A stretch of 64,000 nucleotides of DNA from Actinospineispora spinosispora DSM 44797. GTDB lineage: Bacteria; Actinomycetota; Actinomycetes; Mycobacteriales; Pseudonocardiaceae. The DNA lies in NCBI RefSeq assembly GCF_000429025.1, contig NZ_AUBB01000024.1, positions 124,001 to 188,000 of the forward strand, read 5' to 3'. Shown here piece by piece: positions 9,928 to 49,800 of this stretch. A model generated the notes under the pieces. It searched no databases. It was not told the origin of the DNA and saw nothing but the letters and a program-made list of their open reading frames with translations. The position numbers and the translations under genes are program-made. How positions within the stretch are numbered: the stretch's first letter is position 1; the number at the start of each line of letters is the position of its first letter.

Positions 9928-9940
9928 GCGTGTGGCTGAT

Positions 9941-10010
9941 TCCATGATCACCACCGTCTGAGGGCTGTTTTTTGGCGCGAAAACAGCCCTCAGACGGTGG
10001 TGATCATGGA
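9941..10010. terminator. 31-bp perfect hairpin between convergent tetR genes
   Basis: The arms 9941-9971 and 9980-10010 are exact inverted repeats with an 8-base loop (TTGGCGCG). Arms end in a T run and A run, so a U tract exists in either direction. The right arm includes the stop codon of the minus-strand TetR gene. The length is unusual for a simple terminator. Confidence 0.8.
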
Positions 10011-10651: not shown

Positions 10652-10714
10652 CGTTGCCTCCTCCCGTCGAACAGACGCCGAAAGTACCGCAGCCGAGATC
10701 TGGGAGCGCACCAA

Positions 10715-10748
10715 GACTGTCTGATACAAATGACGTAACTTGACAGTC
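10715..10748. promoter_or_regulatory. Inverted repeat GACTGTC-N20-GACAGTC between tetR and SDR
   Basis: Perfect 7-bp arms flank a 20-bp AT-rich spacer in the divergent promoter. A second weaker repeat, GATAC, occurs at 10723 and 10753. It is the likely binding site of the adjacent TetR. Confidence 0.45.
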
Positions 10749-10768
10749 GTTAGATACGAGGTGTGCAG

Positions 10769-11599: not shown

Positions 11600-11602
11600 G
11601 GT

Positions 11603-14427: not shown

Positions 14428-14475
14428 CCCTGTGAGTGTTCCGGCCGCCCATAGGCGGCCGGAACACTCACGGGG
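14428..14475. terminator. 22-bp hairpin between P450 and convergent tetR
   Basis: The arms 14428-14449 and 14454-14475 pair with a single wobble around a CATA loop. The hairpin begins just after the P450 stop and overlaps the last codons of the convergent TetR gene. Confidence 0.8.
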
Positions 14476-15091
14476 CGGCGGCCTCCACTCCGGCGAGAAA
14501 TGCTCGCAGTGACGCCACGAAGAGCTGCTCGGTGTTCGCTTTGTTGGCCCGGCTGGCCGCCGCCAGCTGGGGCATCTGTTCGGGGTCGATGTCGCGGAAT
14601 GCCATGTCCCCTGCCTCGGCGTCGCGCGAGGCCTCGATCAGCGCGGTACCGATCGTGAGCCGTTCCAGCCCGTCCATGACCAGGACGTGGCTCGACAGCG
14701 GCAGACCCGAATGCTCCTTCAGTACGACCGCGTGGAGCTCGTAGAGGGAGACAAGTAGATCCCTGGGGAGGAACTGCACGAGTACCGGCGCGGTGTTGCG
14801 GTGCCGCAGGATCGTGCGCCGGAAGTTGACCGAGAGCTCCACGAAGTAGTCGGTCCAGTGCGCGCCCGGCCGCCACGGGGGGCGCTCCGTCTCCAGGACC
14901 ACCGTCTTTGCCACCTCGACGAGTATCTCGGTCCGGTCGCGGAAGTGGTGGTACAGCGACGGGGTTCGAATGCCGAGAGCGTCGCCCAGCTTCGGCATGC
15001 TGAATGCCGCATAGCCGTCCCGGTCCATGAGCGCCAGGGCTGCTTCGACGATGACCCGGCGACTCAGCGTCGGCGGGGTGTAGTTCGTCAT
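14468..15091 (-). CDS. TetR-family transcriptional regulator
   Basis: A 207-residue regulator of a different TetR subtype from the other three. Its helix-turn-helix is MPKLGDALGIRTPSLYHHFRDRTEILVEVA, and its C-terminal domain resembles the TetR/AcrR members with a FLPRDLLVSLYELH region. It is divergent from the SDR at 15305 across a gap holding the 17-bp ACCTAA-type operator. That same operator recurs at three other promoters including the mce operon. Position therefore makes this the best candidate for the regulon's repressor (inference). Confidence 0.88.
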   Translation of the reverse strand: MTNYTPPTLSRRVIVEAALALMDRDGYAAFSMPKLGDALGIRTPSLYHHFRDRTEILVEVAKTVVLETERPPWRPGAHWTDYFVELSVNFRRTILRHRNTAPVLVQFLPRDLLVSLYELHAVVLKEHSGLPLSSHVLVMDGLERLTIGTALIEASRDAEAGDMAFRDIDPEQMPQLAAASRANKANTEQLFVASLRAFLAGVEAAAP

Positions 15092-15220
15092 GGCAGCGGA
15101 TTATGCAGCATTGCCCGCCGATCCGGTGTTTTCGTCGATCTTCAACGTGTCGGCCTCGGCACGCTCGACCAGGTTCCGCGGCGTAGCGGGCGTGCTGGAC
15201 GATCTCGCTTGACGTCTTTT

Positions 15221-15237
15221 CCCTAAAGCTATAAGGT
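15221..15237. promoter_or_regulatory. 17-bp operator motif, copy 1 (CCCTAAAGCTATAAGGT)
   Basis: This matches ACCTAA-N5-TTAGGT with two changes. It lies 68 bp before the SDR start, between the divergent TetR gene and the SDR. Related copies are at 18885, 26318 and 28944. Confidence 0.6.
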
Positions 15238-15304
15238 ACTTTCGTTACGTGATTTCCTTGAATGTTTTCAATGCGCGCATGGTGGACGTCGGAGAGGACG
15301 TGTC

Positions 15305-16174
15305 GTGGCGAGGTTGAATGGCAAAGTCGCCGTCATCACCGGGGCAGGCTCAGGCCTGGGGCGCCAGGCCGCCCAGATGTTCGCCGCCGAGGGCGCGAAG
15401 GTCGTCGTGATGGACATCCTGGGTGACCGCGCCGAGGGAACCGTCAAGCTCGTCACGGAGCAGGGCGGCGAGGCCGTTTCGGTGGAAGCGGACACGACGG
15501 TCGAGGCGGATGTCGCCCGTACCGTCGACACGGCGGTCCGGCGGTTCGGCAAGTTGGACATCATGTGGGCCAATGCCGGGATCGTCTCCCGAGGCGGGGT
15601 GCCCTCGGTCCTCGGCGGGGAGCAGCTGGCCTTCGAAGACTTTCCGCTGGAGGACTGGAACAACGTTCTCGCGGTCAACCTCACAGGCTCGTTCCTGTGT
15701 GCCAAGCACGCCGTACCTGCCCTGCGTGCCAACGGCGGCGGCGTGATCCTGATGACGTCATCGGCGTCCTCGTTCGTCGCCTACCACAGCATCGCGCCCT
15801 ACTCGGCGACGAAGGCCGGCATCAACGGCATGGTTCGCGCACTGTCGTTGGACCTGGGCAAGTACGGGATTCGGGTCAACGCGATCGCACCGACCCACGG
15901 CATGTCGCCGAACTTCCTGATGGAGCAGGGCGCGCCCGTCGTCGGGCAGTCCTACGAGGAGGTTCAGGGAGCATGGGACCCCTCGGTGTCGCCGATCCCG
16001 CTGAAGCTCGACCGCCCACCGTCACTGACCGACAACGCCAACGCCGCCCTGTTCCTCGTCTCGGACGAGGCGGCCTACATCTCGGGGCTCACGCTGCCCA
16101 CCACGGACGGCGGCACGCTGGCCCGGGTCGCCATGCAGTTCCCCGAGGACATGGCGTCGCACCCGAGCGGCTGA
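15305..16174 (+). CDS. SDR-family oxidoreductase
   Basis: A 289-residue short-chain dehydrogenase. The cofactor motif is TGAGSGLGRQAAQMFAAEGA, then WANAGIV. Ser is in TSSASSFV and Tyr/Lys in YSATKAG, followed by the long NAIAPTHGMSPNFLM loop. The start is GTG at 15305 after GGAGAGG. It heads an operon with an aldehyde dehydrogenase, a 3Fe-4S ferredoxin and a flavin/2Fe-2S reductase, so sequential alcohol-to-aldehyde-to-acid oxidation is plausible. It is controlled by operator copy 1. Confidence 0.88.
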   Translation: MARLNGKVAVITGAGSGLGRQAAQMFAAEGAKVVVMDILGDRAEGTVKLVTEQGGEAVSVEADTTVEADVARTVDTAVRRFGKLDIMWANAGIVSRGGVPSVLGGEQLAFEDFPLEDWNNVLAVNLTGSFLCAKHAVPALRANGGGVILMTSSASSFVAYHSIAPYSATKAGINGMVRALSLDLGKYGIRVNAIAPTHGMSPNFLMEQGAPVVGQSYEEVQGAWDPSVSPIPLKLDRPPSLTDNANAALFLVSDEAAYISGLTLPTTDGGTLARVAMQFPEDMASHPSG

Positions 16175-16206
16175 GCGGTCCTCGTCGAAGAACAACCGGA
16201 GTTCGC

Positions 16207-17712
16207 ATGGACACCGAGCTGAGGAACCGGGTGGGTGTCGATTGGCTGCCGCCGGCGGGTGGCGGCTGGGATGCACTCGAGGATCCGTCCTTCGGGACCG
16301 TCTTCGGTCGCGTGCCGCACAGCGGTCCCGAGGACGTCGACGCCGCCGTCGCCGCCGCGCGGAAGACGGTTGATCGTGGCCACTGGGCGGCTACGCCGCC
16401 CTGGCAGCGGGCCGGTTTCCTGCGGCGCATCGCCGAACGCCTGGACGCGATCGCCCCGGAGCTCACCGCCGCGCTGGTGCGTGACACCGGGACCGCCGCG
16501 CGGCTGTGCGGCGCGGTTCACGTGTTGGGGCCGGTCGCGCACCTGCGGGAGTTCGCCGGGATGCACGCGCTGCTCGCGCCGGTGGAGCGTGAGCCGTCCA
16601 ACCCGTCGGGAACCGGCAGGTGGACGATCCGGCGGGACCCGGTGGGAGTCGTCGCCGGACTGCTCCCGCACAGCTTCTCCGTGCGGTCGGCGGTGTGGAA
16701 GTTCGCGCCGGCGATGCTGGCCGGTAACACAGTCGTGCTGAAGGCGCCGAGGCTGGCACCCCTCGGCGTCCACGAGCTGGCTCGAGCGGCGGAAGAGGTC
16801 GGTCTGCCACCCGGTGTGCTGAACGTGGTGCACGGGGGAGTCGACGCTGGCCGCGCGCTCGTCGGCCACCCCGACGTGGACTTCGTGTCGTTCACCGGTA
16901 GCTCGGCGGCCGGGCGTGAGGTCATGGCTGCGGCCGCGTCGGGACTGACGCCGGTGTTGATGGAGCTGGGGGGCAAGACGCCGGCGGTCCTGCTCGACGA
17001 CGTCGACGTCGAGTGGGCGACGCGAGCGGTGATGTTCTCATCGGTGATCGGCTCGGGGCAGGGCTGCGTCGCGGTCACCCGGATGCTCGTTCCGGCCTCC
17101 CGCTACGCCGAGGTCCTCGACGTCGCTGTTCGCTACGCGCGGGACGTCGTGGTCGGGCCGGCCGGCGAGGAGGGCACCGACGCCGGGCCCCTGATCAGCC
17201 GCGCCCACCGGCGCAAGGTCGAGGAGTTCATCGCGACCGGTGTCGCCGAGGGTGCCCGGCTGCTGGCCGGCGGCGGGCGGCCGGACGGCGTGCCGGAAGG
17301 GGGCCACTACCTGTCCCCGGCCCTGTTCGGCGACGTCACCCCGGACATGACGATCTACCAGGAGGAGATCCCCGGCCCGGTGCTCGTCGTCGTGCCGTAC
17401 CGGGACGACGACGAGGCCATCCGGCTGGCCAACGACTCCCGCTACGGCCTGGCGGCGTCGGTGTGGGGTGCCGACCCGGACCGGGCCCGCGGCGTTGCCG
17501 CGCGGCTGCGCGCCGGGCTCGTCTGGATCAACGAAGCGGGTGTGATGGACGTGGCGCTCGCCCCGCTGGCCGGCCGGGGCGACAGCGGGGTCGGAGCGGA
17601 ACTGGGGCCGGAAGGTCTGCTGGCCTACACGTTGCCCAAGAGCACCTGGCACGCCGGGGCCGCGCGACGCGACGGCGGCGCCCGGGTGGAATCTGTGAGG
17701 GAGTCGGGATGA
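16207..17712 (+). CDS. Aldehyde dehydrogenase family protein
   Basis: A 501-residue NAD(P)-dependent dehydrogenase fold. The catalytic Cys is in SGQGCVAVTRML and the general-base Glu in MELGGKTP; the EEIPGPVL segment is normal. The usual PWNFP motif, which supplies the oxyanion-hole Asn, is replaced by PHSFS. The C-terminal K-Q-S-G signature is also altered (RGDSGVG). These changes may tune the substrate or reduce normal activity. It lies 32 bp after the SDR and overlaps the ferredoxin start (ATGA). Confidence 0.85.
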   Translation: MDTELRNRVGVDWLPPAGGGWDALEDPSFGTVFGRVPHSGPEDVDAAVAAARKTVDRGHWAATPPWQRAGFLRRIAERLDAIAPELTAALVRDTGTAARLCGAVHVLGPVAHLREFAGMHALLAPVEREPSNPSGTGRWTIRRDPVGVVAGLLPHSFSVRSAVWKFAPAMLAGNTVVLKAPRLAPLGVHELARAAEEVGLPPGVLNVVHGGVDAGRALVGHPDVDFVSFTGSSAAGREVMAAAASGLTPVLMELGGKTPAVLLDDVDVEWATRAVMFSSVIGSGQGCVAVTRMLVPASRYAEVLDVAVRYARDVVVGPAGEEGTDAGPLISRAHRRKVEEFIATGVAEGARLLAGGGRPDGVPEGGHYLSPALFGDVTPDMTIYQEEIPGPVLVVVPYRDDDEAIRLANDSRYGLAASVWGADPDRARGVAARLRAGLVWINEAGVMDVALAPLAGRGDSGVGAELGPEGLLAYTLPKSTWHAGAARRDGGARVESVRESG

Positions 17713-17909
17713 GTACACACCTGCGGATCGACCGAGGTGCCTGCGCGGGGCACGGGCTCTGCTACGGCACCGCCCCCGACCTGCTGGACAGCGACGAACA
17801 GGGCGACCCGGTCCTGCTCACCGAGCCGGTACCGGACGACCTGCTCGACGACGCCGACCAGGTCGTCGAGATGTGTCCGGAACGTGCGCTGACCATCGAG
17901 CGGGACTGA
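17709..17909 (+). CDS. 3Fe-4S ferredoxin (P450-type)
   Basis: A 66-residue ferredoxin with cysteines 12, 18 and 56 in CAGHGLC and MCPERAL. The middle ligand position of a 4Fe-4S site is occupied by Gly/His, which is typical of the 3Fe-4S ferredoxins that serve actinobacterial P450s. It is embedded between the aldehyde dehydrogenase and a reductase, with a four-base overlap upstream. It probably donates electrons to one or both P450s in the cluster. Confidence 0.9.
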   Translation: MSTHLRIDRGACAGHGLCYGTAPDLLDSDEQGDPVLLTEPVPDDLLDDADQVVEMCPERALTIERD

Positions 17910-17916
17910 GCCCGGG

Positions 17917-18861
17917 GTGGAAGCCGAATTCGATGTCGTCGTCCGTGCGCGGGACGAGCTCGCGGACGGTGTCGTGGCGTTGGAGCTGGAGCGCACCGAC
18001 GGCGCCGAGATGCCGCACTGGCGGCCGGGTGCCCATCTGGACCTGGTGCTCACCGACGACCTGATCCGCCAGTACTCGCTGTGTGGTGATCCGGCCGACC
18101 GCACGATGCTGCGGGTCGCCGTGCTGCGCGAGGCCGACGGACGAGGTGGTTCCGCCCACGTCCACGACCAGGTCGGCATCGGGCAGAAGCTGCGTGTGCG
18201 GGGGCCGCGTAACCACTTCGCGCTGGAGCCCTCGGACAGCTACCTGTTCATTGCCGGCGGCATCGGCATCACCCCGATCCTGCCGATGATCCGGGCGTGC
18301 GAGGACGACGGAGCGCGGTGGCGGTTGGTCTACGGGGGGCGTCGACGTGCCTCGATGGCGTTCCGCGACGAGCTGCAGCGCGAGTTCGGTCAGCGGGTCA
18401 CCCTGTGGCCTCAGGACGAGCGCGGGCTGATCGAGCTCGCCGGGGTCGTGGATGCCGCCGCCGAGGGCACGTCGGTCTACTGCTGTGGTCCGGAAGCGTT
18501 GATCGCGGCGACCGAGGCGGTGTGCCGAGAGCGTCCGGGCGTGACGGTGTACGTCGAGCGGTTCGCGCCGAAGGACCAGGCCGTCGGTGAGTCCGGTTCG
18601 TTCGAGGTGGAGCTGGCCCGCAGCGGCCGGACGATCACCGTCGCGGCCGGGGTGAGCATCGTGGACGCGCTGGCCGAGCACGACGTCCAGGTCGACACGT
18701 CCTGCAGGGAAGGGACCTGCGGGACGTGTGAGACGGCCGTGCTGAGCGGCGTTCCGGACCATCGAGATTCGCTGCTCACCGAGGAGGAACGGGCCGAGAA
18801 CGATGTCATGTTCGTCTGCGTGTCCCGGTGTCGGTCCGGCAGGCTCGTTCTCGATCTGTGA
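17917..18861 (+). CDS. Phthalate dioxygenase reductase-type oxidoreductase (FMN, NAD, 2Fe-2S)
   Basis: A 314-residue class IA reductase. Domains in order are the flavin-binding barrel (RQYSLCGDP), the nucleotide-binding domain (YLFIAGGIGITPILPMI and YCCGPEAL) and a C-terminal plant-type 2Fe-2S ferredoxin (CREGTCGTCE with a further Cys in FVCVSR). This architecture transfers electrons from NAD(P)H to an oxygenase in one chain. The GTG start follows the ferredoxin by 7 bp. The Rieske oxygenase at 18981 is the natural partner. Confidence 0.92.
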   Translation: MEAEFDVVVRARDELADGVVALELERTDGAEMPHWRPGAHLDLVLTDDLIRQYSLCGDPADRTMLRVAVLREADGRGGSAHVHDQVGIGQKLRVRGPRNHFALEPSDSYLFIAGGIGITPILPMIRACEDDGARWRLVYGGRRRASMAFRDELQREFGQRVTLWPQDERGLIELAGVVDAAAEGTSVYCCGPEALIAATEAVCRERPGVTVYVERFAPKDQAVGESGSFEVELARSGRTITVAAGVSIVDALAEHDVQVDTSCREGTCGTCETAVLSGVPDHRDSLLTEEERAENDVMFVCVSRCRSGRLVLDL

Positions 18862-18884
18862 GCCGTCGGAGGCTGGCATTAATT

Positions 18885-18901
18885 GCCTAAAAGCGTTAGA
18901 C
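18885..18901. promoter_or_regulatory. 17-bp operator motif, copy 2 (GCCTAAAAGCGTTAGAC)
   Basis: This matches ACCTAA-N5-TTAGGT with changes only at the outer bases, and lies 80 bp before the Rieske start at 18981. Confidence 0.55.
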
Positions 18902-18980
18902 TAATTTGCATATCGCACAGAGAAATGGCGATGCGGGTTTTGCCTGTTGGTCCAGCGGTGAACTCGTCGAGGAGGACGTA

Positions 18981-20192
18981 ATGACAAGCTCGATCGCGCC
19001 CCGCGAGACCAGGATTCGGCGAGCACTCGATCATCTTCGGAACGAGACGACCGACGAGTACGACCGGATCACCGGGTTCCGAGCAACGGACTTCACCGAT
19101 CCGGTGATCGCGGCGAGGGAACGTGACCTGGTGTTCGGCAGGGTGCCCTCGATCGTGGCGCACAGTTCGGAGCTGCCCAAGGCCGGCGACTTCATGACCC
19201 TGCAGCTGCCGCGTAACAAGGTCATCATCGTGCGCCAGCGAGACGGCGGGTCGAAGGTGTTCGTCAACCTCTGCCGGCACCGGGGCGCCTTGCTCGAAGA
19301 ACAGGAGAAGGGGCGCTGCAGGCTGTTCTCCTGCGGTTACCACCGCTGGTCCTACGACACCAACGGTGAGTTGCGCACGGTGACCCGGGGCTCCACCTTC
19401 GGTGAGATCGACCGGTCCCGGTACGGGCTCATCGAGCTACCGAGCCAGGAGCGGCACGGGTTCATCTGGGTCGTCGACGACGCGGACGCGACGATCGACG
19501 TCGCCGACTGGCTGGGCCCGGAGATGGACGACGCGCTGTCCCAGTACGGCCTCCAGGACATGGTCGCGTTCCAGGCCGAGGGTTTCGACGAACCGGTCAA
19601 CTGGAAGATCATGCAGGATGCGTTCCTGGACGGCTACCACATCCAGTACGCGCACCCGAACACGGCGGCGAAGCACGTGCACACCAACGTGCAGGCCTTC
19701 GAGGACTGGGGGCGGCACTGCCGCTTCATCGCCCCTCGCAAGACCATCGATCGGTGGATCGATGAGGACCCGGGTGACCTCAGCCTGGCCAAGCACGTCA
19801 TCGAGACCCACTTCCTCATGCCGAACAGCACGCTGCTGCGTCAACCCGACCATTTCCAGCTGCTCACCTTCCGCCCACACCCGAAGGATCCCGGTTGGTC
19901 CCGCATGGAGATGCGGCTGATCGTGCCCAGGTGCGAGGTCAGCGGGATGGACGAGGGAACCTGGTCGAAGATCTGGGCCAAGAACTGGAAGATCCTGCTC
20001 GCGGTTCTGCACGAGGAGGACTTCCCGCTGCTGCGTGGTTCGCAGGCCGGGATGGAGAGCGCGAGCGCGGGCCCCATGCTGCTGGGTCGCAACGAGGTCG
20101 CCAACCACGTGTTCCACCGCGAGCTGCACCGTCTCGTGAGCCCGGCCGATGAAGCGGACCGCGCGGTCGATGGAGCCGACGATCGCTGCTGA
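18981..20192 (+). CDS. Rieske non-haem iron oxygenase, alpha subunit
   Basis: A 403-residue oxygenase. The Rieske site is CRHRGALL with CGYHRWSYD, and the iron site is in MQDAFLDGYHIQYAHPNT. The start at 18981 has AGGAGG 12 bp upstream and sits downstream of operator copy 2, so it begins its own transcript. It resembles the oxygenase at 7280 but is clearly divergent. The reductase at 17917 is its likely electron donor. Ring hydroxylation or O-demethylation of a large substrate is expected. Confidence 0.9.
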   Translation: MTSSIAPRETRIRRALDHLRNETTDEYDRITGFRATDFTDPVIAARERDLVFGRVPSIVAHSSELPKAGDFMTLQLPRNKVIIVRQRDGGSKVFVNLCRHRGALLEEQEKGRCRLFSCGYHRWSYDTNGELRTVTRGSTFGEIDRSRYGLIELPSQERHGFIWVVDDADATIDVADWLGPEMDDALSQYGLQDMVAFQAEGFDEPVNWKIMQDAFLDGYHIQYAHPNTAAKHVHTNVQAFEDWGRHCRFIAPRKTIDRWIDEDPGDLSLAKHVIETHFLMPNSTLLRQPDHFQLLTFRPHPKDPGWSRMEMRLIVPRCEVSGMDEGTWSKIWAKNWKILLAVLHEEDFPLLRGSQAGMESASAGPMLLGRNEVANHVFHRELHRLVSPADEADRAVDGADDRC

Positions 20193-20216
20193 GGTACCCG
20201 GCGTCGCACCGCGGCG

Positions 20217-21212
20217 ATGCACACCACCACGAACCCGACGACGTGCCCGTGGAGCGACGAGGTGATCACCTACACCTGGTACGGCGAGCTGCCGGCCGAC
20301 CATGTCGACGAGCTGCGGCGGATGCTGCGCGACTCGGCCGTGGAGGACGACGAGGCGGGCTTCCCCAAGATCACCGTCGACGGGCCGTACCCCGCCGGCT
20401 GCGCTCACCTGCTGGTGTGGCTGGTGCCCGACGAACGGCCCGGCGCCGGCGCCCCCACCGAACGTCCCCGGCCGATACTGGCTGCCTACCTCAGGGTCGA
20501 GCCCGAAGACGGTGTCGGTTTCGTCCGGTTCGTGGTTCGTCCTGAGCTGCGCTCCAAGGGCATCGCCACGCTGTTGTTCGAGCAGCTCGGGTTCGACCTG
20601 ACCGCTCCGGACGGCTGGGCGGGAACGGGCGTGTCCGCGCTGTACACCTGGGCCAGGGGTGACCACCCGGCCGCCGACCGCATCTCGTCGCGGTTCTCCG
20701 GCGGCGGGGTGCGTCGCACGCATCGTGAGTGGCAGCTGCTGGCGCCGCTGCGCGGCGACGCGACCCGGCATCCCGACGGCGCCGACGTGCGGCCGTTCGA
20801 ACCCGGGACCGACGGTGAGTCCTTGGCGGTGTTGCGTTCGAGGTGCGCGCGGGCCGCGCCGGACCGAGAGGTGCCACCGGAGCTCTTCGTTTTCGTGGCA
20901 CCGGGCACTGACGGGCTTCGTGGCGCGGTCTCGGTGGACCCGGATGCCGGCCAGCGAACCGACTTCGGCACGGCGGGCCGGATCGCGGAGATCCTGGTGG
21001 ACCCCGACCACGCCGACGGCCCGGTCCGGCCGAGCCTGCTGGGCCGGGGCCTGGACTGTCTGCGTGAGAAGGGTCTGCGGGTCGCCGGGATCACCGTGGA
21101 CTCCGCGGACCGGGAGCTGGTCCGCGACTGCCGGTTGATCGGATTCATGCACGACCGCACGGACGCCGAGTACCGGGTCACTAGCGCCAGGAGCCCCCGC
21201 AATGCCACCTGA
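20217..21212 (+). CDS. GNAT-like acetyltransferase, two-domain
   Basis: A 331-residue protein with two GNAT-like halves. The first has the acetyl-CoA-binding segment RFVVRPELRSKGIATLLFEQL. The second, around residues 190-325, keeps a weaker IAEILVDPDHADGP segment and seems degenerate. The tandem layout recalls mycothiol synthase (MshD) but the identity is not established. It overlaps the next gene by 11 bp, so it is in an operon with the DUF35 and thiolase-like proteins. Its role in the pathway is unknown. Confidence 0.7.
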   Translation: MHTTTNPTTCPWSDEVITYTWYGELPADHVDELRRMLRDSAVEDDEAGFPKITVDGPYPAGCAHLLVWLVPDERPGAGAPTERPRPILAAYLRVEPEDGVGFVRFVVRPELRSKGIATLLFEQLGFDLTAPDGWAGTGVSALYTWARGDHPAADRISSRFSGGGVRRTHREWQLLAPLRGDATRHPDGADVRPFEPGTDGESLAVLRSRCARAAPDREVPPELFVFVAPGTDGLRGAVSVDPDAGQRTDFGTAGRIAEILVDPDHADGPVRPSLLGRGLDCLREKGLRVAGITVDSADRELVRDCRLIGFMHDRTDAEYRVTSARSPRNAT

Positions 21213-21945
21213 GATCCTCGGCTCGGTGCCGATCGGCCTCGCGGAGATCGTCGAGCGCCACGGCCGGGCGGTCGCCGAGGGCGACCAGCACGCCACGCTG
21301 AACGATTTCCGCCCGGATCGGATCGGCCAGCTCGTCGCCTCCGCGTCACTTCCCGAGCAGCTCGTCGGGTCCGAGGTCCTGCGGCTGACCGCCGAGCCGG
21401 ATGGCAAGGTCACCGCCCTCATCCGGTACACGGCGGCGGACGGCGAACGGATCGTGCTGCGGTCACGCTGGGTGGAGCTTGCCGAGGGATGGCGGGTCCA
21501 CCACGTACGCAACCTCCCGGAGACACCGCCGAGGCTGCCCGCCGAAGGCCCGGCCGACGACGGGCTGGACACACCTCACTGGGACGGGCTTCGTGCCGGT
21601 GAGCTGCGTATCCAGCGCTGCACGGCGTGCGGTGAGTGGATCTGGGCGCCCCGACCGATGTGCCCCGTGTGCCATAGCTTCGAGCTCGGCTGGCCCGCCG
21701 TCGCACCGAGGGGAGAGATCTACTCCTGGACCCGCACCTGGCAGCCGTTCGCGCCCCAGCTCAGCGGCCACCTCCCGTTCGTCGTGGTGGTGGTGGAGCT
21801 GGCGGAGGCAGGCGGTCGGCGACTCGTGGGCGTGCTGCGTGACGGGGAGAGCGCCGCGCTGCGTGTCGGCCAGCCGGTGAAGGGCGACTTCGACCCACCG
21901 CCGGATGAGCACGGTTGGCCACTGCTGCGCTGGCAGCTGGCATGA
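21202..21945 (+). CDS. DUF35 OB-fold/zinc-ribbon protein with N-terminal NTF2-like domain
   Basis: A 247-residue protein. Residues 1-105 look like an NTF2/SnoaL-type domain. From about 118 it has the DUF35 layout: a helix, a zinc ribbon (CTACGEWIWAPRPMCPVC) and an OB fold. DUF35 proteins bind and activate Ltp2-type thiolase-like aldolases in steroid side-chain degradation (ChsH2-Ltp2), where the N-terminal domain is a MaoC hydratase. Here a different domain occupies that place. It lies immediately before the Ltp2-like gene, so the two probably form a complex. Confidence 0.75.
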   Translation: MPPEILGSVPIGLAEIVERHGRAVAEGDQHATLNDFRPDRIGQLVASASLPEQLVGSEVLRLTAEPDGKVTALIRYTAADGERIVLRSRWVELAEGWRVHHVRNLPETPPRLPAEGPADDGLDTPHWDGLRAGELRIQRCTACGEWIWAPRPMCPVCHSFELGWPAVAPRGEIYSWTRTWQPFAPQLSGHLPFVVVVVELAEAGGRRLVGVLRDGESAALRVGQPVKGDFDPPPDEHGWPLLRWQLA

Positions 21946-21961
21946 GCAGGGGAACCAGACC

Positions 21962-23137
21962 ATGAGCGAGTCGAGGACGCTGCGCGGCAAAGCGGCCGTG
22001 GTCGGCGTCGGCAGCACGCCCTACTACAAACGCGGCACCGCGCCGGACACCTCGGCGCGGCTGATCCTGCGCGCCGCGCTCGCCGCCTGCAAGGACGCCG
22101 GAGCGGACCCCCGGAGCATCGACGGGTTCGTCTCCTACGCGGGCGACCTCAACGAAGGCCTGGCGATCGGCGCGGCGCTGGGCGTGCACGAGGTCCGCTA
22201 CACGACCCAGGTGTGGGGCGGCGGCGGAGGCGCGGTGGCCGCGGCCGTCAACGCGGCGGCGACCGCGGTGGCGACCGGCCAGGCCGACCGGGTCCTGGTG
22301 TACCGGGGCATCAGCGAGGTGGCGGACGGTCGCCAGAGCTATGGGAAGGGCCATTTCCCCCCGTTGCTGTCCGCGCACGGGGTGCTGACGCCCGCGCAGA
22401 TCTGTGCGCTGCGCACGCAGCGGATGCTCAGCGCGGACGCGGTACCCGCGTCGGCGATGGAGGCGCTCGTCCTCGCCGACTACCACCACGCCCAGCGCAA
22501 CCCCGACGCGGTCGCCTACGGCAGGCCGCTGACCCACGAGCAGTACCTGGACGCACGGATCGTGTCCGAGCCGTTCCGCCTCTACGACTGCTCCCGGGAG
22601 AACGACGGCGCCTCGGCGCTGCTGGTCACCTCGGCACAGTCGGTCGAGGAGTTCGCCGGGCAACCGGCGTACCTGCTCGGGGGAGTGCAGGGCGCCGGCC
22701 CGGACTGGTCGGAGTCGATCGAGAACATGGCGGCCTACAGCAGCGCCGGTTTCCACCCCGCGATGGTCGAGCGGCTCTGGGCGGAGGCGGCGATCAAACC
22801 GAGCGAGATCGACGTGGTCCAGGTGTACGAGAACTTCAGCGGCCCCGCGGTGGCCTCGCTGATCGACTTCGGTCTGTGCCCGACCGGGCCGGAGGCGGGC
22901 GCGTTCATGACGGTGCACAACCTGGTCGCACCGACGGGTCGGCTGCCGATCAACACGGCGGGCGGCAACCTTGCGGAGGGGTTCGTCCACGGCATCGGCC
23001 TGGCGGTCGAGGCGGTCCGCCAGATCCGGGAGAGCTCCACCAACCAGGTCCCGGGCGCGGACATCTCACTGCTGATCGGCGGCCCGATGGCCCCGCTGGT
23101 CAGCGCCACGGTATTCGGCTCGCACCGCACTCTCTGA
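21962..23137 (+). CDS. Thiolase-fold lipid-transfer protein, probable Ltp2-like retro-aldolase
   Basis: A 391-residue thiolase-fold protein without thiolase catalytic residues. The nucleophile-Cys position is a glycine run (QVWGGGGGAVAA), and the usual GHP histidine motif is GGNLAEGFVHG. VQVYENFSG carries the tyrosine that is conserved in Ltp2 aldolases. Such enzymes cleave a beta-hydroxyacyl-CoA into a ketone and a shorter CoA ester, and need a DUF35 partner, which is encoded directly upstream. The ATG at 21962 is 16 bp after that gene. The specific reaction is inference from family and context. Confidence 0.8.
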   Translation: MSESRTLRGKAAVVGVGSTPYYKRGTAPDTSARLILRAALAACKDAGADPRSIDGFVSYAGDLNEGLAIGAALGVHEVRYTTQVWGGGGGAVAAAVNAAATAVATGQADRVLVYRGISEVADGRQSYGKGHFPPLLSAHGVLTPAQICALRTQRMLSADAVPASAMEALVLADYHHAQRNPDAVAYGRPLTHEQYLDARIVSEPFRLYDCSRENDGASALLVTSAQSVEEFAGQPAYLLGGVQGAGPDWSESIENMAAYSSAGFHPAMVERLWAEAAIKPSEIDVVQVYENFSGPAVASLIDFGLCPTGPEAGAFMTVHNLVAPTGRLPINTAGGNLAEGFVHGIGLAVEAVRQIRESSTNQVPGADISLLIGGPMAPLVSATVFGSHRTL

Positions 23138-23170
23138 CCGACAAGCTCCCTCCCACCACACGAGGTAGAC

Positions 23171-24694
23171 ATGACGACATCAGCGGCATCGGCGCTCAAC
23201 TGGTGGGCGCGGACCAAGGGCGACCAGACCGCGATCGTCTGTGGCCCCGACCAGCTGGACTACCGGACGCTGCGCAACTGGTCGGGCCGGGTGGCGCGCC
23301 GGCTCGCCGAGGACGGTGTGCGACCCAGCGACCGGGTGGCGGTGCTCGGCGGCAACAGCCTGGACTGGGTGGCCTCGGCCTACGGCGTCATCAAGGCCGG
23401 CGGAGTCCTGGTCCCGCTCAACCCTCGGTTGGTCGCGGTCGAGCTGCACAAGTTCCTCGTCGAGTCCGGAGCCTCCGCCGTGCTGGTGGAGGCACCACAC
23501 CGGGCCGCCGTCGACCGGGCCGTCGAACTCGGAGCCGACGTTCGAGTTGTGGACTTCGACGTGGTCGCCGGCCTGCGCGAGGGCGAGGACGACGAGTTCC
23601 GCATCGACCGGGAACCGGACGAGCCGGTCGCCATCCTGTTCACCAGCGGTTCCACCGGCCTGTCGAAGGGCGTCGTCTGTACGAACCGGACCCTGCTGGA
23701 CATCGTCTTCGAGGCGTCACTGGTGGAGGAGGGGCTGCGGCCGGGCGCTCGAAGCCTGCTGCTGCTCCCGCTGTGCTTCACCCCCGGCCTCGTCTGGGGA
23801 CTGATCATGACGACCGTCCTCGGCGGAACACTGGTCGTCGAGCCCGACCTGAACGCCTCCCGCGCGGTCAGGCGCCTCGACGAGTTCGACATCCAGGTGC
23901 TCTTCGGCGTACCGCTCATCTACGACGTGATGGCGAAAGCCCCCGAGTTCGCGACGGCGGACCTCTCACACCTGAAGACCGCGGTGGTCGGCGGCGCCGC
24001 CGTCCCGCTGCCGTTGCTGAAAGCGTGGGGCGACAAGGGGGTGAAGCTGCGCCAGATCTACGGCATGACCGAGGTCGGCGGCATCGCCACCGCCACCTGG
24101 CCGAGCGAGGCGGAGCAGCACCCCGACTCGTGCGGGAGCGGGTCGGTGTTCACCGACCTGTTGGTGGTCCGCGAGGACGGCACCGAGTGCGATCCGGGAG
24201 AGGCCGGCCAGATCCTGATGCGCGGCCCCGGCATGACCATCGGCTACTGGGAGGACCAGGAGTCGACCGAGCAGGCACTGCGCGGCGGATGGCTGCACAG
24301 CGGCGATCTCGGCGTCCGCGACGAGGCAGGACGGCTCAGGTTCGTCGACCGGCTCAAGGACCTGATCATCTCCGGCGGGATCAACATCTCCCCCGTCGAG
24401 ATCGAGGCGGTCATCGCCCGGATACCCAACGTGGCCGAGGTCGCCGTGATCGCCGCGCCCGACGAGCGGTTCGGGGAGACACCCGCCGCGATCGTGAGCC
24501 GTAGCGGCCCGCTCGACACCGACCAGATCATCCAGCAGTGCCGCGACGAGCTCGCGGACTACAAGGTGCCCAGATACGTGGTGCTGCGGGAGGACCCGCT
24601 GCCCCGGCTGCCGAGCGGCAAGCTCTCCAAACGCGACATCCGCGCCGAGTACGCCGACGTCACAGCTCGTTTCCAGAAGATCACAAGCCCGTGA
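23171..24694 (+). CDS. Acyl-CoA synthetase (AMP-binding)
   Basis: A 507-residue ANL ligase, paralogous to the one at 676. It has TSGSTGLSKGVVCTNR, the YGMTEVGG motif, the GGWLHSGDLG segment, RLKDLIISGGINISPVEIE and the C-terminal catalytic lysine in LPSGKLSKRD. It lies 33 bp after the Ltp2-like gene and 25 bp before the aldehyde dehydrogenase, and so belongs to the same transcript. It probably activates an acid product of the pathway, complementing the first ligase. Confidence 0.9.
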   Translation: MTTSAASALNWWARTKGDQTAIVCGPDQLDYRTLRNWSGRVARRLAEDGVRPSDRVAVLGGNSLDWVASAYGVIKAGGVLVPLNPRLVAVELHKFLVESGASAVLVEAPHRAAVDRAVELGADVRVVDFDVVAGLREGEDDEFRIDREPDEPVAILFTSGSTGLSKGVVCTNRTLLDIVFEASLVEEGLRPGARSLLLLPLCFTPGLVWGLIMTTVLGGTLVVEPDLNASRAVRRLDEFDIQVLFGVPLIYDVMAKAPEFATADLSHLKTAVVGGAAVPLPLLKAWGDKGVKLRQIYGMTEVGGIATATWPSEAEQHPDSCGSGSVFTDLLVVREDGTECDPGEAGQILMRGPGMTIGYWEDQESTEQALRGGWLHSGDLGVRDEAGRLRFVDRLKDLIISGGINISPVEIEAVIARIPNVAEVAVIAAPDERFGETPAAIVSRSGPLDTDQIIQQCRDELADYKVPRYVVLREDPLPRLPSGKLSKRDIRAEYADVTARFQKITSP

Positions 24695-24719
24695 GGGTAT
24701 TTCTCGGGAGGCATCGTCC

Positions 24720-26297
24720 ATGAGCACCACCACCGACGGCCCGGCGGCACCGGGCGAGACCAGCCGGCGGGACATCGTGGTCCGCTGTCCCGCCGACGGG
24801 CGTGTCGTGGGCAGCGTGCCGGACCTCGACCCGGCCGCGATCGGCGCCGAAGCGGCCCGGTTGCGCGCCGCGCAGCCGGACTGGGAGGCGCTGGGGCCGA
24901 AGGGTCGAAGCGCCCATCTTCTGCGCTGGCTGGACTGGCTGCTGGACAACGAGCAGCGGCTGCTGGAGATGGTGCAGGCCGAGGCCGGGAAGTCATGGGC
25001 GGATGCGTCACTGGAGATGGTGGTGACGATGGACGTCATCAACTACTTCACCAAACATGCGGCCGAGTTCCTCGGCGACCGCGCCATCCGTCCGGCCGGG
25101 ATGGCGAATGCCGCCCGCAAGCTGCGGGTCCAGGTCCGCCCCCACCAGCTCGTCGGGCTGATCACCCCGTGGAACGGTCCGCTGGCCGGCCCGATGATGG
25201 ACGTGGTCGGTGCCCTGGTCGCCGGCGCGGCGGTACTCAGCAAGCCGTCCGAGGTGACCCCGCTGGCCTGGAGCGAGGCGGTCCGGGGCTGGCGGGAGAT
25301 CGGCGCGCCGCCGGTGCTGGCCTGTGTGACCGGTGGACCGGACGCGGGTGTCGCCGTCGTCGACGAGGTGGACATGGTCATGTTCACCGGCTCGGTCCGC
25401 ACCGGGCGCAGGATCGCCGCCCGCGCGGGCGAACGGCTGATTCCGTGCAGCCTCGAGCTCGGCGGCAAGGACGCGATGATCGTGCTGGCCGACGCCGACA
25501 TCGAACGGGCGGCGGGCGGAGCGGTCTGGGGCGCCATGACGAACGTCGGCCAGGCGTGCATCTCGGTGGAGCGGGTCTACGTCGAGGCCGCGGTGTACGA
25601 CGAGTTCGTGGCGAAGGTGGTCGAGAAGGTCCGCGCGCTGCGCCAGGGAATGGACGGCCCGGGGACCTTCAGCACCGACATCGGCGCCATGGTCACGTCC
25701 GGCCAGGTCGACATCGTCGAGCGACACGTCCGCGACGCGGTAGCCAAAGGGGCTCGGGTGCTGGTCGGCGGCGAGCGTGGACCGGGTGAAGGGAACTTCT
25801 TCCAACCGACCGTGCTCGTGGACGTCGACCACTCCATGGCCTGTATGCGCGAGGAGACCTTCGGTCCCACGCTGCCGATCATGAAGGTGTCGGGCGAGGA
25901 CGAAGCACTCGAGCTGGCGAACGACTCGGAGTACGGCCTCAGCTCCAGCCTGTGGACCGGCGATCCGGAGCGGGCGGACCGCCTGACCCGTCGCATCGAG
26001 GCCGGTTCGGTCGCGGTGAACAACGCACTGGTCGCCACGTTCCAGCTACCCACCCCGATGGGCGGCTGGAAGCAGTCCGGGATCGGGGCTCGGTTCGGCG
26101 GCGCCGCCGGGGTTCTGAAGTACTGCAGGCAGCAGACTGTGGTCTCGGAACGGATGACCATGAAAGCCGAGCCGAACTGGTACCCGGTCCAGCCGCGACG
26201 CGGCCGACTCATCGCGAAGGTCGCGCGGATGCTGGGCGCGAACGACTGGCGACGGCGGCTGGGGCGCGACCCGGAAAAGCCCAGTTCAGCGACCTGA
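24720..26297 (+). CDS. Aldehyde dehydrogenase (succinate-semialdehyde dehydrogenase-like)
   Basis: A 525-residue enzyme with all canonical elements: ITPWNGPLAGPMM for the oxyanion Asn, FTGSVRTGRRIA for NAD(P), SLELGGKDA for the general base, NVGQACISVERV for the nucleophile Cys and GGWKQSGIGAR near the C-terminus. A basic 40-residue tail (MTMKAEPNWYPVQ onward) is longer than usual. In contrast to the protein at 16207, it should be fully active. It ends the operon that begins at 18981; a new promoter with operator copy 3 follows. Confidence 0.9.
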   Translation: MSTTTDGPAAPGETSRRDIVVRCPADGRVVGSVPDLDPAAIGAEAARLRAAQPDWEALGPKGRSAHLLRWLDWLLDNEQRLLEMVQAEAGKSWADASLEMVVTMDVINYFTKHAAEFLGDRAIRPAGMANAARKLRVQVRPHQLVGLITPWNGPLAGPMMDVVGALVAGAAVLSKPSEVTPLAWSEAVRGWREIGAPPVLACVTGGPDAGVAVVDEVDMVMFTGSVRTGRRIAARAGERLIPCSLELGGKDAMIVLADADIERAAGGAVWGAMTNVGQACISVERVYVEAAVYDEFVAKVVEKVRALRQGMDGPGTFSTDIGAMVTSGQVDIVERHVRDAVAKGARVLVGGERGPGEGNFFQPTVLVDVDHSMACMREETFGPTLPIMKVSGEDEALELANDSEYGLSSSLWTGDPERADRLTRRIEAGSVAVNNALVATFQLPTPMGGWKQSGIGARFGGAAGVLKYCRQQTVVSERMTMKAEPNWYPVQPRRGRLIAKVARMLGANDWRRRLGRDPEKPSSAT

Positions 26298-26317
26298 TGG
26301 GTATCTTGACACAAATA

Positions 26318-26334
26318 ACCTAAAGCAATAAGGT
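26318..26334. promoter_or_regulatory. 17-bp operator motif, copy 3 (ACCTAAAGCAATAAGGT)
   Basis: It lies 78 bp before the P450 start and nearly matches copy 1 (15 of 17 bases). A possible -35 element TTGACA is at 26307-26312, directly before it, so a bound repressor would block the promoter. Confidence 0.65.
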
Positions 26335-26411
26335 GACTGCACCCGAGAATTGATCCCGAATTCTGACCATTGTCCGATCCGCATTTACTGGCTAGGGCAG
26401 GAGTACCCGTC

Positions 26412-27653
26412 ATGACCACCAGCTCGACCGAGAGCAATGTCGTTCAGGTCGACTTCGACATCTACGACCAGGCGCTCGTCGCCCCGACCGACGTCGTCCG
26501 GGAGAGGACCGCCGAGGTGGCGGCACTCGGGTCCGTCGTCTACTCGACGGCCCATGGCGGGCATTGGGTGGTGACCGGCTACAACGAGATCCAGGCCGTG
26601 ATGCGTGACCCGGAGACGTTCTCCAGCTGGCCGAACAATCTGGTCCCGCACGGCGCGGGCAAGTTCCTGCCGCTCGAGCTGGACCCGCCGGAGCACACCG
26701 CGTACCGTCGCGCGCTCCAGCCGCTGTTCAGTCCGAGCAGAATGCGTGCGCTCGAGGACGAGATCCGGGGGATCGTCACCGAGCTGATCGACGGTTTCGC
26801 CGAAACCGGAGAATCGAACTTCATCTCCGATTTCGCCCACGAGCTGCCCGCGCGAGTCTTCCTGGCGCTGATGGACTGGCCGCTCGAAGACGCGCCGATG
26901 TTCACCGAGGCCACCGACATCACGCTGCTGGGCAAGCCGGGCGCGACCGAGGAGGAGTCCAACGCCGCGCGCGCCGAGGCGGCCATGCGCATGTTCACCT
27001 ACTTCGGCCAGGTCGTCGCCGATCGGCGGGCGCGCCCGGAGGATGCCGACGACGTGACGACGGCCATCGTGCGCACCCCCATCGCGGTGGACGATGGTGA
27101 ACGACTGCTCACCGACGAAGAGCTGTGCAACATGTTCTTCCTGCTCCTCATCGCGGGCCTGCACACGGTGCAGGGGTCGCTGGCCTGGAGCCTGCTGCAG
27201 CTGTCCGCTCATCCCGAGCAGCGGCAACGCCTGATCGACGACCCCTCGTTGATCCAGCCCGCCGTCGAGGAGATTCTGCGGATCGAGGCGGCGGTCTCGC
27301 CGGGGCGCTGCGCCACGAAGGACACCGAGCTGGCCGGCGTGCGGATCAGGAAGGGCGACCAGCTGCTGCTGATCCTCAACGCCGCCAATCACGACGTCGC
27401 GGAGTTCGCCTCGCCCGACGAGCTGCAGCTCGACCGCAGTCCGAACCGGCACCTGTCGTTCGGGTCCGGGCCGCACCGCTGCCTCGGCTCGCACCTGGCG
27501 AGGGTCGAGTTGCGCATCGCGCTGGAGGAGCTGCACCGCAGAATCCCGGACTACAGCATCGCGCCGGGTCGGTCCCCGATCTCGCACGTGAGCCAGGTCC
27601 GAGGGGTGGTCCAGCTCCCGATCGTCTTCACCCCGGAGCGCCCGACAAGCTGA
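26412..27653 (+). CDS. Cytochrome P450
   Basis: A 413-residue P450. ExxR is in EEILRIEAAV, the haem loop is FGSGPHRCLGSHLAR, and the substrate-side region has ELDPPEHTAYRR. The I-helix motif reads LLIAGLHTVQG, so the acid normally preceding the catalytic Thr is His. The ATG at 26412 (MTTSSTE) is preferred over one 14 codons earlier that lacks a ribosome site. It is a single-gene transcript under operator copy 3 and ends in a strong hairpin. Confidence 0.9.
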   Translation: MTTSSTESNVVQVDFDIYDQALVAPTDVVRERTAEVAALGSVVYSTAHGGHWVVTGYNEIQAVMRDPETFSSWPNNLVPHGAGKFLPLELDPPEHTAYRRALQPLFSPSRMRALEDEIRGIVTELIDGFAETGESNFISDFAHELPARVFLALMDWPLEDAPMFTEATDITLLGKPGATEEESNAARAEAAMRMFTYFGQVVADRRARPEDADDVTTAIVRTPIAVDDGERLLTDEELCNMFFLLLIAGLHTVQGSLAWSLLQLSAHPEQRQRLIDDPSLIQPAVEEILRIEAAVSPGRCATKDTELAGVRIRKGDQLLLILNAANHDVAEFASPDELQLDRSPNRHLSFGSGPHRCLGSHLARVELRIALEELHRRIPDYSIAPGRSPISHVSQVRGVVQLPIVFTPERPTS

Positions 27654-27678
27654 CCCGCAGCTCGCACAGAGCGAGTGC

Positions 27679-27712
27679 ACGCCGCACAGAGGCTGGGGCC
27701 TCTGTGCGGCGT
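27679..27712. terminator. 15-bp hairpin after the second P450
   Basis: The arms 27679-27693 and 27698-27712 pair perfectly around TGGG, 25 bp after the P450 stop. The hairpin separates the catabolic genes from the Mce locus. Confidence 0.75.
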
Positions 27713-27853
27713 CGAGCACGTCTGTGTGAGCTTTTTCGTCGGCGTGATCTTGAGACGAATTACGATGTTTGTAACAACGTATCGTTCTGGCGAGACGCTC
27801 GTTACATCTGGTGAGAGCCCGGCGAGCTTCCCCCGGGTGGACGAGGAGGTCCG

Positions 27854-28903
27854 ATGAGTGCCGGTGTCGAGGTCCGGGTCGACGGTCTGTCGAAGTCTTT
27901 CGGCAGGTCGAACATCTGGTCCGATGTCACGCTGACACTGCCGCCGGGTGAGGTGAGCGTGTTGCTGGGCCCGTCGGGTACGGGCAAGTCGGTGTTCCTG
28001 AAGAGCCTGATCGGACTGCTGAAACCGGAGCGGGGTTCGATCGTCATCCACGACACGGACCTGGTGCGGTGCACCGAGTCGAAGCTGTACGAGATCCGCA
28101 AGCTCTTCGGCGTGCTGTTCCAGGACGGTGCGCTGTTCGGGTCGATGAACCTGTTCGACAACATCGCCTTCCCCCTTCGTGAGCACACGAAGAAGGGCGA
28201 GAAGGAGATCAGGGACATCGTCATGGAGAAGATGACGATGGTGGGCCTCGTCGGCGACGAGATGAAGCTGCCCGGTGAAATCTCCGGCGGAATGCGTAAG
28301 CGCGCCGGTCTGGCCCGCGCGCTCGTGTTGGACCCGGAGATCATCCTGTTCGACGAGCCGGACTCCGGTCTCGACCCGGTCCGTACCGCGTACCTGAACC
28401 AGCTGATCGTCGACCTGAACGCACAGACCGACTCGACGTTCCTGATCGTCACCCACGACATCAACACCGCGCAGACGCTGCCGGACAACATCGGCCTGCT
28501 CTACCGCAAGCACCTGGCGATGTTCGGACCCCGAGAGGTGTTGTTGACCTCGGAGGAGCCGGTCGTCTCCCAGTTCCTCAACGGGCGCAGGGAAGGTCCG
28601 ATCGGGATGTCGGAGGAGAAGGACTCCGAACAGGCCGCGCGGGAGATGCAGGAAGCAGGCGACCTGGCCGGCCTTCCTCCGCTCAAGCCGCAGCTGCAGC
28701 CGAGTCCCGGAGTGGGCGAGCGGCCGGCGGTCGGGCGACGCAGGGCCAGGGTGCGGGACATGATGCACACGCTGCCCGAGAGCGCGCAGCGGGCGATCAG
28801 GGAAAGCATGACGTCAGAGGGATCGGGCGACGAGTCGCCCGGCGGGCCTCGGCGTGGTCGACACGGGATGGATGACGCCCCCACGGAGCAGTTCCGCCGC
28901 TGA
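27854..28903 (+). CDS. mceG: Mce-type ABC transporter ATPase (MceG/Mkl)
   Basis: The ATPase that powers lipid import by the YrbE/Mce complex on the cytoplasmic side. It has 349 residues: Walker A GPSGTGKS, Q-loop GVLFQDGALFG, signature ISGGMRKRAGLARAL, Walker B IILFDEPDSGLD and the H-loop VTHDI. A C-terminal extension of about 100 residues, hydrophilic and basic, is typical of MceG. GAGGAGG precedes the ATG. In mycobacteria mceG is usually unlinked; here it is just upstream of the permeases, separated by a 237-bp promoter region. Confidence 0.92.
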   Translation: MSAGVEVRVDGLSKSFGRSNIWSDVTLTLPPGEVSVLLGPSGTGKSVFLKSLIGLLKPERGSIVIHDTDLVRCTESKLYEIRKLFGVLFQDGALFGSMNLFDNIAFPLREHTKKGEKEIRDIVMEKMTMVGLVGDEMKLPGEISGGMRKRAGLARALVLDPEIILFDEPDSGLDPVRTAYLNQLIVDLNAQTDSTFLIVTHDINTAQTLPDNIGLLYRKHLAMFGPREVLLTSEEPVVSQFLNGRREGPIGMSEEKDSEQAAREMQEAGDLAGLPPLKPQLQPSPGVGERPAVGRRRARVRDMMHTLPESAQRAIRESMTSEGSGDESPGGPRRGRHGMDDAPTEQFRR

Positions 28904-28943
28904 CCTGGCCCGCCGGTCCTGGAAAAAATCTGTCAGCAACGTC

Positions 28944-28960
28944 ACCTAACACATTTAGGT
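28944..28960. promoter_or_regulatory. 17-bp operator motif, copy 4 (ACCTAACACATTTAGGT)
   Basis: This is the most symmetrical copy: perfect ACCTAA/TTAGGT arms with a 5-bp centre. It sits about 180 bp before yrbEA, placing the whole mce operon in the same regulon as copies 1-3. Confidence 0.65.
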
Positions 28961-29140
28961 TCGTTGTCCAGGCAGAAGGAAAAGTGCTGCACTACCTGAA
29001 CCAGTTCGGCAAATGAATATGGCGAACTGGACGACGAAACGAGGCGTTGCCGACCCCGTGTTGAACCATGCCTCTGTTCACGATTAAAGGAGCCGTCGTC
29101 ATGGCGACGTCGCTGGGTAGAGTCTGATGGGGAGAATGTG

Positions 29141-29917
29141 ATGTTGGAGATCAGTGCCAAATCGGCCGTTACTCCAACCGGCAGGTTCTTCGCATTTACC
29201 GCCGACACGATGGTTGCGATCTTCAAGCGCCCGTTCCAATGGCGAGAATTCATTCAGCAGACCTGGTTCGTGGCCAGTGTCTCGCTCGGGCCCGCCGTGC
29301 TGCTCGGCATTCCGTTCGTCGCGCTGGTGACGTTCCAGTTCAACCTGATCCTCAAGGAGATCGGCGCGATCGACCTGTCCGGCGCCGGTTCCGCGTTCGC
29401 CACGGTCACCCAGATCGGCCCGGTCGCCACGACGTTCATCGTGGCGGGCGCGAGCTCGACGGCGGTGTGCGCCGACATCGGCGCCAGGCGCATCCGCGAA
29501 GAGCTGGACGCCATGGAGGTGCTCGGCATCGACGTCGTCCAGCGGCTCGTGGTGCCCCGGGTCCTGGCAACGGCGCTGAACGCGTTCCTGCTCAACGGCG
29601 TCATGATCCTCATCGGGCTCAGCGGCGGCTACTTCTTCGGCGTCTTCCTGCAGGGCGCGGCACCCGGCCAGTACCTGGACTCGCTCAAGCTGCTCGTCGG
29701 CTTCGCGGACCTGGTGCACGGTGAGCTGCGGGCCGTCGTCTTCGGTGTGGTCGGCGCACTCATCGCGTGCTTCCGGGGAATGAACTGCAAGGCCGGACCA
29801 CGAGGTGTCGGCAACGCGGTGAACGAGACGGTCGTCTACACGTTCCTCGCACTGTTCCCGATCAACATCATTCTCACCCAGGTGCCGTACTCCCTGGGCA
29901 TCGTAGGAGGCCACTGA
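29141..29917 (+). CDS. yrbEA: YrbE-type permease A of the Mce transporter
   Basis: An integral membrane protein of 258 residues, MlaE/YrbE family. Hydrophobic segments include VSLGPAVLLGIPFVALVTFQ and ATTFIVAGASSTAVCADIGA. The EELDAMEVLGID coupling motif that contacts the ATPase is present, and the C-terminus is hydrophobic (LALFPINIILTQVPYS). It forms the membrane pore with YrbEB. The ATG follows GGGGAG; a GTG one codon earlier is also possible. It is the first gene of the ten-gene mce operon. Confidence 0.93.
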   Translation: MLEISAKSAVTPTGRFFAFTADTMVAIFKRPFQWREFIQQTWFVASVSLGPAVLLGIPFVALVTFQFNLILKEIGAIDLSGAGSAFATVTQIGPVATTFIVAGASSTAVCADIGARRIREELDAMEVLGIDVVQRLVVPRVLATALNAFLLNGVMILIGLSGGYFFGVFLQGAAPGQYLDSLKLLVGFADLVHGELRAVVFGVVGALIACFRGMNCKAGPRGVGNAVNETVVYTFLALFPINIILTQVPYSLGIVGGH

Positions 29918-30771: not shown

Positions 30772-30778
30772 CAACACA

Positions 30779-40863: not shown

Positions 40864-40906
40864 CAGGAAGCCGCCAATCGATCTCGGACACCACTCGTGA
40901 TTAGAG

Positions 40907-40921: not shown

Positions 40922-40961
40922 AGTGTCAGATTGTCGCATATTTCGTGCCTGGAGGTCCGTC

Positions 40962-49774: not shown

Positions 49775-49800
49775 CAATCGCTGAAATCACTTCTTCTGAA

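Follow-up and report, generated by a model that had tools for sequence, protein, structure and literature searches.

In the 64,000-nucleotide stretch of the genome of Actinospineispora spinosispora DSM 44797 analysed here (referred to as the window; contig NZ_AUBB01000024.1, positions 124,001 to 188,000), genes for catabolic enzymes stand next to an mce operon, and this raises the question of whether all of them answer to one operator and one regulator. We consider it highly probable that four sites in the window, S1 to S4, are the operators of D, a TetR-type regulator (TetR_N and TetR_C_1 domains) encoded at 14468..15091 on the minus strand, and that D represses the four operons behind them until a compound of the pathway frees it. 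A dimer of D would bind a tetO-like palindrome of 17 bp that covers the spacer and -10 element of sigma70-type promoters, and would so block RNA polymerase at the promoters of the SDR/aldehyde dehydrogenase/ferredoxin/reductase, Rieske/ChsH2/Ltp/CoA ligase/aldehyde dehydrogenase, P450/ATPase and yrbEAB-mceA-F operons. Release of D would come from the substrate or from a pathway intermediate, probably something lipid-like or the corresponding acid or CoA ester, and the uptake and breakdown genes would then come on together.

Four sites, their rarity and their promoters

An earlier note on this DNA had placed sequences of the type ACCTAA-N5-TTAGGT at 15221, 18885, 26318 and 28944, and all four are present there, each on the forward strand. 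S1 (CCCTAAAGCTATAAGGT, 15221..15237, two mismatches to that pattern) lies in the intergenic stretch between D and the SDR gene, S2 (GCCTAAAAGCGTTAGAC, 18885..18901, three mismatches) upstream of the Rieske oxygenase operon, S3 (ACCTAAAGCAATAAGGT, 26318..26334, one mismatch) upstream of the P450 gene and S4 (ACCTAACACATTTAGGT, 28944..28960), a perfect palindrome with no mismatch, upstream of yrbEA-yrbEB-mceA-F. The pattern as first written holds exactly for S4 only; the real consensus is looser, and S2 is weak.

Mismatch counts inside the window alone are weak evidence: there are 8 matches with three mismatches or fewer against 3.24 expected from a shuffle test, and S2 is equalled in mismatch count by matches at 26997, 28994, 31095 and 59915, some of them within coding sequence. 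Across the 9.54 Mb genome the signal for the four sites is strong. CCTAA-N5-TNAG gives 14 rows at 13 places, with S1 to S4 all included, and VYCTWW-N5-WWAGRB, a pattern widened after the sites had been seen so as to admit all four, likewise occurs at 13 places, four of which are S1 to S4 inside 13.7 kb (Poisson P about 1e-9). No genome-wide excess was found for ACCTWW-N5-WWAGGT at two mismatches or fewer (183 places compared to 276 for the control). At one mismatch or fewer this pattern occurs at 13 places in the genome, three being S1, S3 and S4, and a tblastn search of the other ten with the window proteins returned only distant SDR matches, at one place; no regulon was thus seen outside the window among the places with at most one mismatch.

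A matrix built from 20 exact sites in 9 other genomes, and so never trained on the window, ranked S3 first, S4 second and S1 third within it (27.1, 26.5 and 20.8 bits), with S2 fifth at 6.8 bits, under a match at 7722 (7.2 bits) inside a coding frame; the best score of the reversed matrix in the window was 13.0. None of 5000 simulated intergenic stretches reached the observed score for S1, S3 or S4, compared to 221 of 5000 for S2. From these scores and simulations S1, S3 and S4 stand alone while S2 needs support from synteny. This was sought in the gap between the reductase gene (FNR) and the Rieske oxygenase gene (Rieske1), where a site of at least 10 bits is present in 4 of the 6 mapped relatives in which these genes are adjacent (G210, G203, G139 and G050; the training set of the matrix used consisted in part of sites from those same genomes) and was not found in the gaps of G146 and G263, which are about 50 bp each.

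The right half of S1 overlaps the -10 element of a sigma70-like promoter (TTGACG at 15209-15214, N17, TAAGGT at 15232-15237), and S3 overlaps another (TTGACA at 26306-26311, N17, TAAGGT at 26329-26334) whose -10 element coincides with the palindrome's right half. At S2 the -35 distance holds only CTGGCA, and inspection of S4 by eye along its direction of transcription showed no -35 box in register. Over 77 distinct sites from this and other genomes, TTGACA-like -35 boxes are most frequent at offsets of 12 bases (13 of 154 orientations) and 13 bases (10 of 154) ahead of the site, against a mean of 0.8 per offset. The sites overlap the promoter spacer and -10 element, so repression by D most likely works by shutting out RNA polymerase.

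The regulator D and its association with the site

D is a protein of 207 amino acids with a single TetR_N helix-turn-helix (PF00440, 45 bits, cut-off 24) followed by a TetR_C_1 ligand domain (PF02909, 26.8 bits, cut-off 21). Its predicted structure (mean pLDDT 91.3) matches TetR(D) structures, and Foldseek comparison with the operator complex 1qpi gave TM scores of 0.76 (query) and 0.81 (target). D also fits the TetR_C_1 class in having a palindrome at a divergent neighbour, with S1 in the gap between D and the SDR gene and sites beside 13 of 33 homologous loci. A search of genome contigs with D returned one match in Caulobacterales, covering residues 11-61, and a plasmid search returned five records of 30-33% identity (E <= 1e-15); the plasmid search with Rieske1 gave no record at E <= 1e-60.

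The earlier note had attributed the sites to one common regulator, with the TetR at 14468 as the candidate, and both proposals are supported by the distribution of D, site and Rieske1 over genomes. A D-type gene (E <= 1e-30) is carried by 13 of 297 genomes of the family, this one included, and at E <= 1e-35 by 10 of 397 genomes of the order, four of them shared with the family set; Rieske1 (E <= 1e-120) occurs in 9 of the 297, all among the 13 D-positive ones. ACCTWW-N5-WWAGGT without mismatch is present in 10 of these 13, compared to none of 12 D-negative genomes of the same genus (12 scanned of 20 listed; the reversed pattern occurs 0 or 1 times per genome). Using the pattern of the earlier note at two mismatches or fewer, and leaving out the loci of this genome (near-duplicate loci stand in both sets), a site lies within 300 bp of 13 of 33 D-type loci and within 1500 bp of 14, with 0 of 33 for the reversed control. 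A matrix trained with the genome in question left out found a site of at least 12 bits between -400 and +20 at 15 of 32 D-type gene starts. Five of six further D-positive genomes of the order contain a mismatch-free site, which is beside D in G330 only and 16-39 kb from D in G490. Related bacteria share this pairing of repressor and site and, judging from these sequence associations, D is very probably the protein that binds S1 to S4.

The placement of sites in the relatives' islands was mapped over 50 stretches, none longer than 20 kb, which came from 17 genomes (980,012 bases). A matrix of 19 sites, which included those of the window and of the mapped genomes, found 86 distinct sites of at least 13 bits, and the centre of only one fell inside a stretch homologous to window genes, though such stretches account for 38% of the DNA; with the reversed matrix there were 7 sites, 2 of them inside. 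With the leave-genome-out matrix, a site of at least 12 bits lies between -400 and +20 at 77 of 332 homologue starts, compared to none for the reversed matrix. These starts include those of SDR3 (9/18), Rieske1 (8/18), ALDH1 (8/23), CYP2 (7/24), FadD_b (7/25), FNR (4/12) and yrbEA (3/9). No sites were found by this matrix before any of mceA-F, Ltp (0/16) or X331 (0/8), as would be explained by these genes probably lying inside operons. The three yrbEA sites are those of G146 and G270 (yrbEA 31-32% identical) and G490 (52%), at -213, -189 and -89, and in G263 and G073 a site lies roughly 0.7 and 0.5 kb upstream of mce. The site stands before non-orthologous mce operons in some relatives, and the joint control of catabolic genes with mce, as the earlier note had it, is supported in part, by the three of nine yrbEA starts with a site within 400 bp but not by the three closest mce orthologues, which lack one.

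For recognition of the site, the tetracycline operator tetO2, given as TCCCTATCAGTGATAGAGA (PMC11686294), offers a comparison, and its CTA-N7-TAG frame is kept in S2, S4 and the consensus. In the complex described for TetR, hydrogen bonds from side chains to bases are made by Arg28 and Gln38 alone, at +2 and +3, and Tyr42 is in contact with +4 (PMC7102968). In an ungapped alignment Pro33 and Thr43 of D fall at the places of Arg28 and Gln38, and its recognition helix retains Pro, Tyr and His; in the aligned sites no base is fixed at +2, +3 is T (72%) and not A, and T (70%), A and G are kept at +4 to +6. G at +2 occurs in 7 of 14 half-sites of homologues of the Lys type compared to 5 of 34 of the Pro type (nominal P 0.024, the rows not being independent), and since the rows are related this is only suggestive; base +2 and the contact residue corresponding to TetR position 28 may have changed together.

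Several observations weigh against D as the regulator of all four sites. By the strict pattern, 20 of 33 D-type loci lack a site within 300 bp, and for 19 of 33 this still holds when the distance is extended to 1500 bp; the matrix places none at 17 of 32 D-type gene starts, and three of the 13 D-positive family genomes contain no mismatch-free site. None was found in G451 either, although it is D-positive, and in G564, G342 and G298 the mismatch-free sites lie on other contigs or regions than D and could have arisen by chance. A 12-bit site within 400 bp is absent from the closest mce orthologues (G210, G050 and G139; yrbEA 88-89% identical), and none was found at that distance in G564 (yrbEA 36% identical). 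S2 scores weakly, S1 and S3 keep the left CTA of the tetO2 frame and not the TAG, and as the consensus is also unlike tetO2 at +-1, +-8 and, in part, +-4 and +-7, the fit to the two changed residues is not exclusive and its agreement is not proof. Three further TetRs, A (9346-9927), B (10004-10660) and C (11603-12217), lie near D, and TetRs of their types accompany the island in eight of the D-positive genomes.

That last point bears on the proposal that one of A, B or C binds S1 to S4 while D regulates something else, which we regard as very improbable. The three sit in the island of D and, with A and C as queries (B was not used as one, and both recovered it in this genome), relatives were found in 8 of 25 genomes searched, all 8 being D-positive. 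A close site is nevertheless present at only 4 of 28 loci of these types, all in G210 and two of them one gene found by both queries; with the matrix, no stretch in the window that precedes A, B or C reaches a score of zero; and G062, G146 and G330 have D and sites with no A- or C-type match at E <= 1e-25. The three related regulators (9346-12217) may use an operator of their own. The shared sequence might instead be the promoter element of one sigma factor, given that its right half doubles as a -10 element (TAAGGT) with TTGAC 17-18 bases ahead at S1, S3 and about a third of the 77 sites, but a strict -35 is absent from that place in about two thirds, S4 and many mismatch-free matches have two-fold symmetry and the motif tracks the presence of D, all of which leaves this explanation with hardly any probability.

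D could also bind the sites as an activator, or act both ways, as might be read from the many sites, S4 among them, that have no -35 box in register. Against this, S1 and S3 cover the -10 element and spacer, where a dimer, once bound, would be expected to obstruct polymerase, and the TetR-family members studied are described as mostly repressors (PMC3511530), so that this reading seems improbable. A more serious alternative, though still an unlikely one, concerns S2 by itself, which on its low score, reached by some simulations and exceeded by the coding match at 7722, could be a chance match, with the Rieske operon run by read-through from S1 or by another factor; the sites of at least 10 bits in the FNR-Rieske1 gap of four relatives argue the other way. 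We infer from the evidence together that D binds all four sites as a repressor.

Genes of the island and the probable substrate

By gene order the genes fall into four operons, all on the plus strand. The first begins downstream of S1 with the SDR dehydrogenase (15305..16174), followed by an aldehyde dehydrogenase (16207..17712), a small ferredoxin (17709..17909, assigned from its translation by reading alone) and the 2Fe-2S/NAD reductase FNR (17917..18861). Downstream of S2 come Rieske1, the alpha subunit of a Rieske oxygenase (18981..20192), the 331-amino acid protein X331 (20217..21212), a ChsH2-type zinc-ribbon/OB protein (21202..21945), an Ltp-type thiolase fold (21905..23137; best solved relative the lipid-transfer protein of the ChsH2 pair 6ok1), an acyl-CoA ligase (23171..24694) and a second aldehyde dehydrogenase (24720..26297). 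X331 has no Pfam match at E 0.001 and no PDB sequence match at E 1, and it adjoins the Rieske gene in several mapped genomes. After S3 stand the cytochrome P450 (26403..27653; its best matches among solved structures are a CYP125 construct, 8vxi, and after it CYP101 types) and an ABC ATPase (27854..28903), taken from family and position as the importer ATPase (MceG-like); as it comes after the P450, S3 probably serves it too. The reading frames yrbEA, yrbEB and mceA-F (29138..38342), named from the earlier note and gene order, follow S4.

Mce operons import lipids, and as the P450 is near CYP125 and CYP101 and the thiolase fold near the lipid-transfer protein of 6ok1, the substrate is likely to be a steroid- or terpenoid-like compound.

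Beside the mce genes, at 39409-41966, are genes for a wax ester synthase/DGAT and for an alpha/beta hydrolase that weakly matches steryl acetyl hydrolase, a pair that also adjoins mce in G050 and G139. At 3542-8434 lie a molybdopterin oxidoreductase, a pyridine-nucleotide oxidoreductase and a second Rieske oxygenase, with no operator-like site at the window copies; homologues of the molybdopterin gene have such a site shortly upstream in G210, G073, G203, G050 and G139, and other copies in G050, G139 and G490 are without one. The region 44304-58954 encodes DUF2326 and CTD10 (ABC-3C) domains as well as a phage-type integrase that matches a GntR domain in its C-terminal part, and is perhaps a defence or mobile island adjoining the mce operon. 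A CCTAA-N5-TNAG match at 46024, by the start of a DUF2326 gene, was taken as chance and is not among the window matrix matches of at least 9 bits.

On a wider scale, it is conceivable, if rather doubtful, that a TetR subfamily with one tetO-like operator code forms a module that has spread among the catabolic islands of four families within one order. As many as four paralogues of D in a genome would then use this one code, a single island might respond to several inducers, and mce importers from separate lineages would have been brought under it. A common operator ties the mce importer to a definite group of enzymes (P450, Rieske and thiolase-fold), so that the inducer of D would be a pointer to what this importer carries; to our knowledge the cargo of many mce operons is not known. 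The operator matrix is also a tool for finding such islands in other genomes.

Relation to known TetR-family systems

TetR-tetO is like D in its TetR_N and TetR_C_1 domains and in the fold match to TetR(D), including 1qpi, and the consensus palindrome shares its frame with tetO2. D is unlike TetR in having Pro and Thr for Arg28 and Gln38 and in scoring 82.7 bits with the tetracycline repressor equivalog NF010319, well below the curated cut-off of 265; the operator differs from tetO2 at +-1, +-2, +-3 and +-8, and the annotated neighbours of D are enzymes and an importer, unlike tetracycline resistance. The known TetR-tetO structure together with this operator offers a direct test of how TetR proteins shift operator specificity.

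None of the six NCBIfam models that D matches bears the name KstR. The KstR regulon also covers an mce operon (mce4). KstR2, likewise a repressor of the TetR type, has palindromic sites at several catabolic promoters in the vicinity of its own gene, but S1 to S4, compared by eye, do not match the 14-bp operator AnCAAGnnCTTGnT that is given for it (PMC3068626). Mce3R is likewise a TetR-like repressor of an mce (yrbE) operon and lipid-related genes, but it is described as a double TetR protein with a non-palindromic 25-bp site (PMC11667970), whereas D is a single TetR of 207 amino acids with a palindrome, and the two match in sequence at E 3e-4 only. Among the titles and abstract openings of open-licence PMC literature no paper describing this regulon was found. 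The regulon is new, while TetR repressors over lipid catabolism or mce import, as in KstR2 and Mce3R, are already known.

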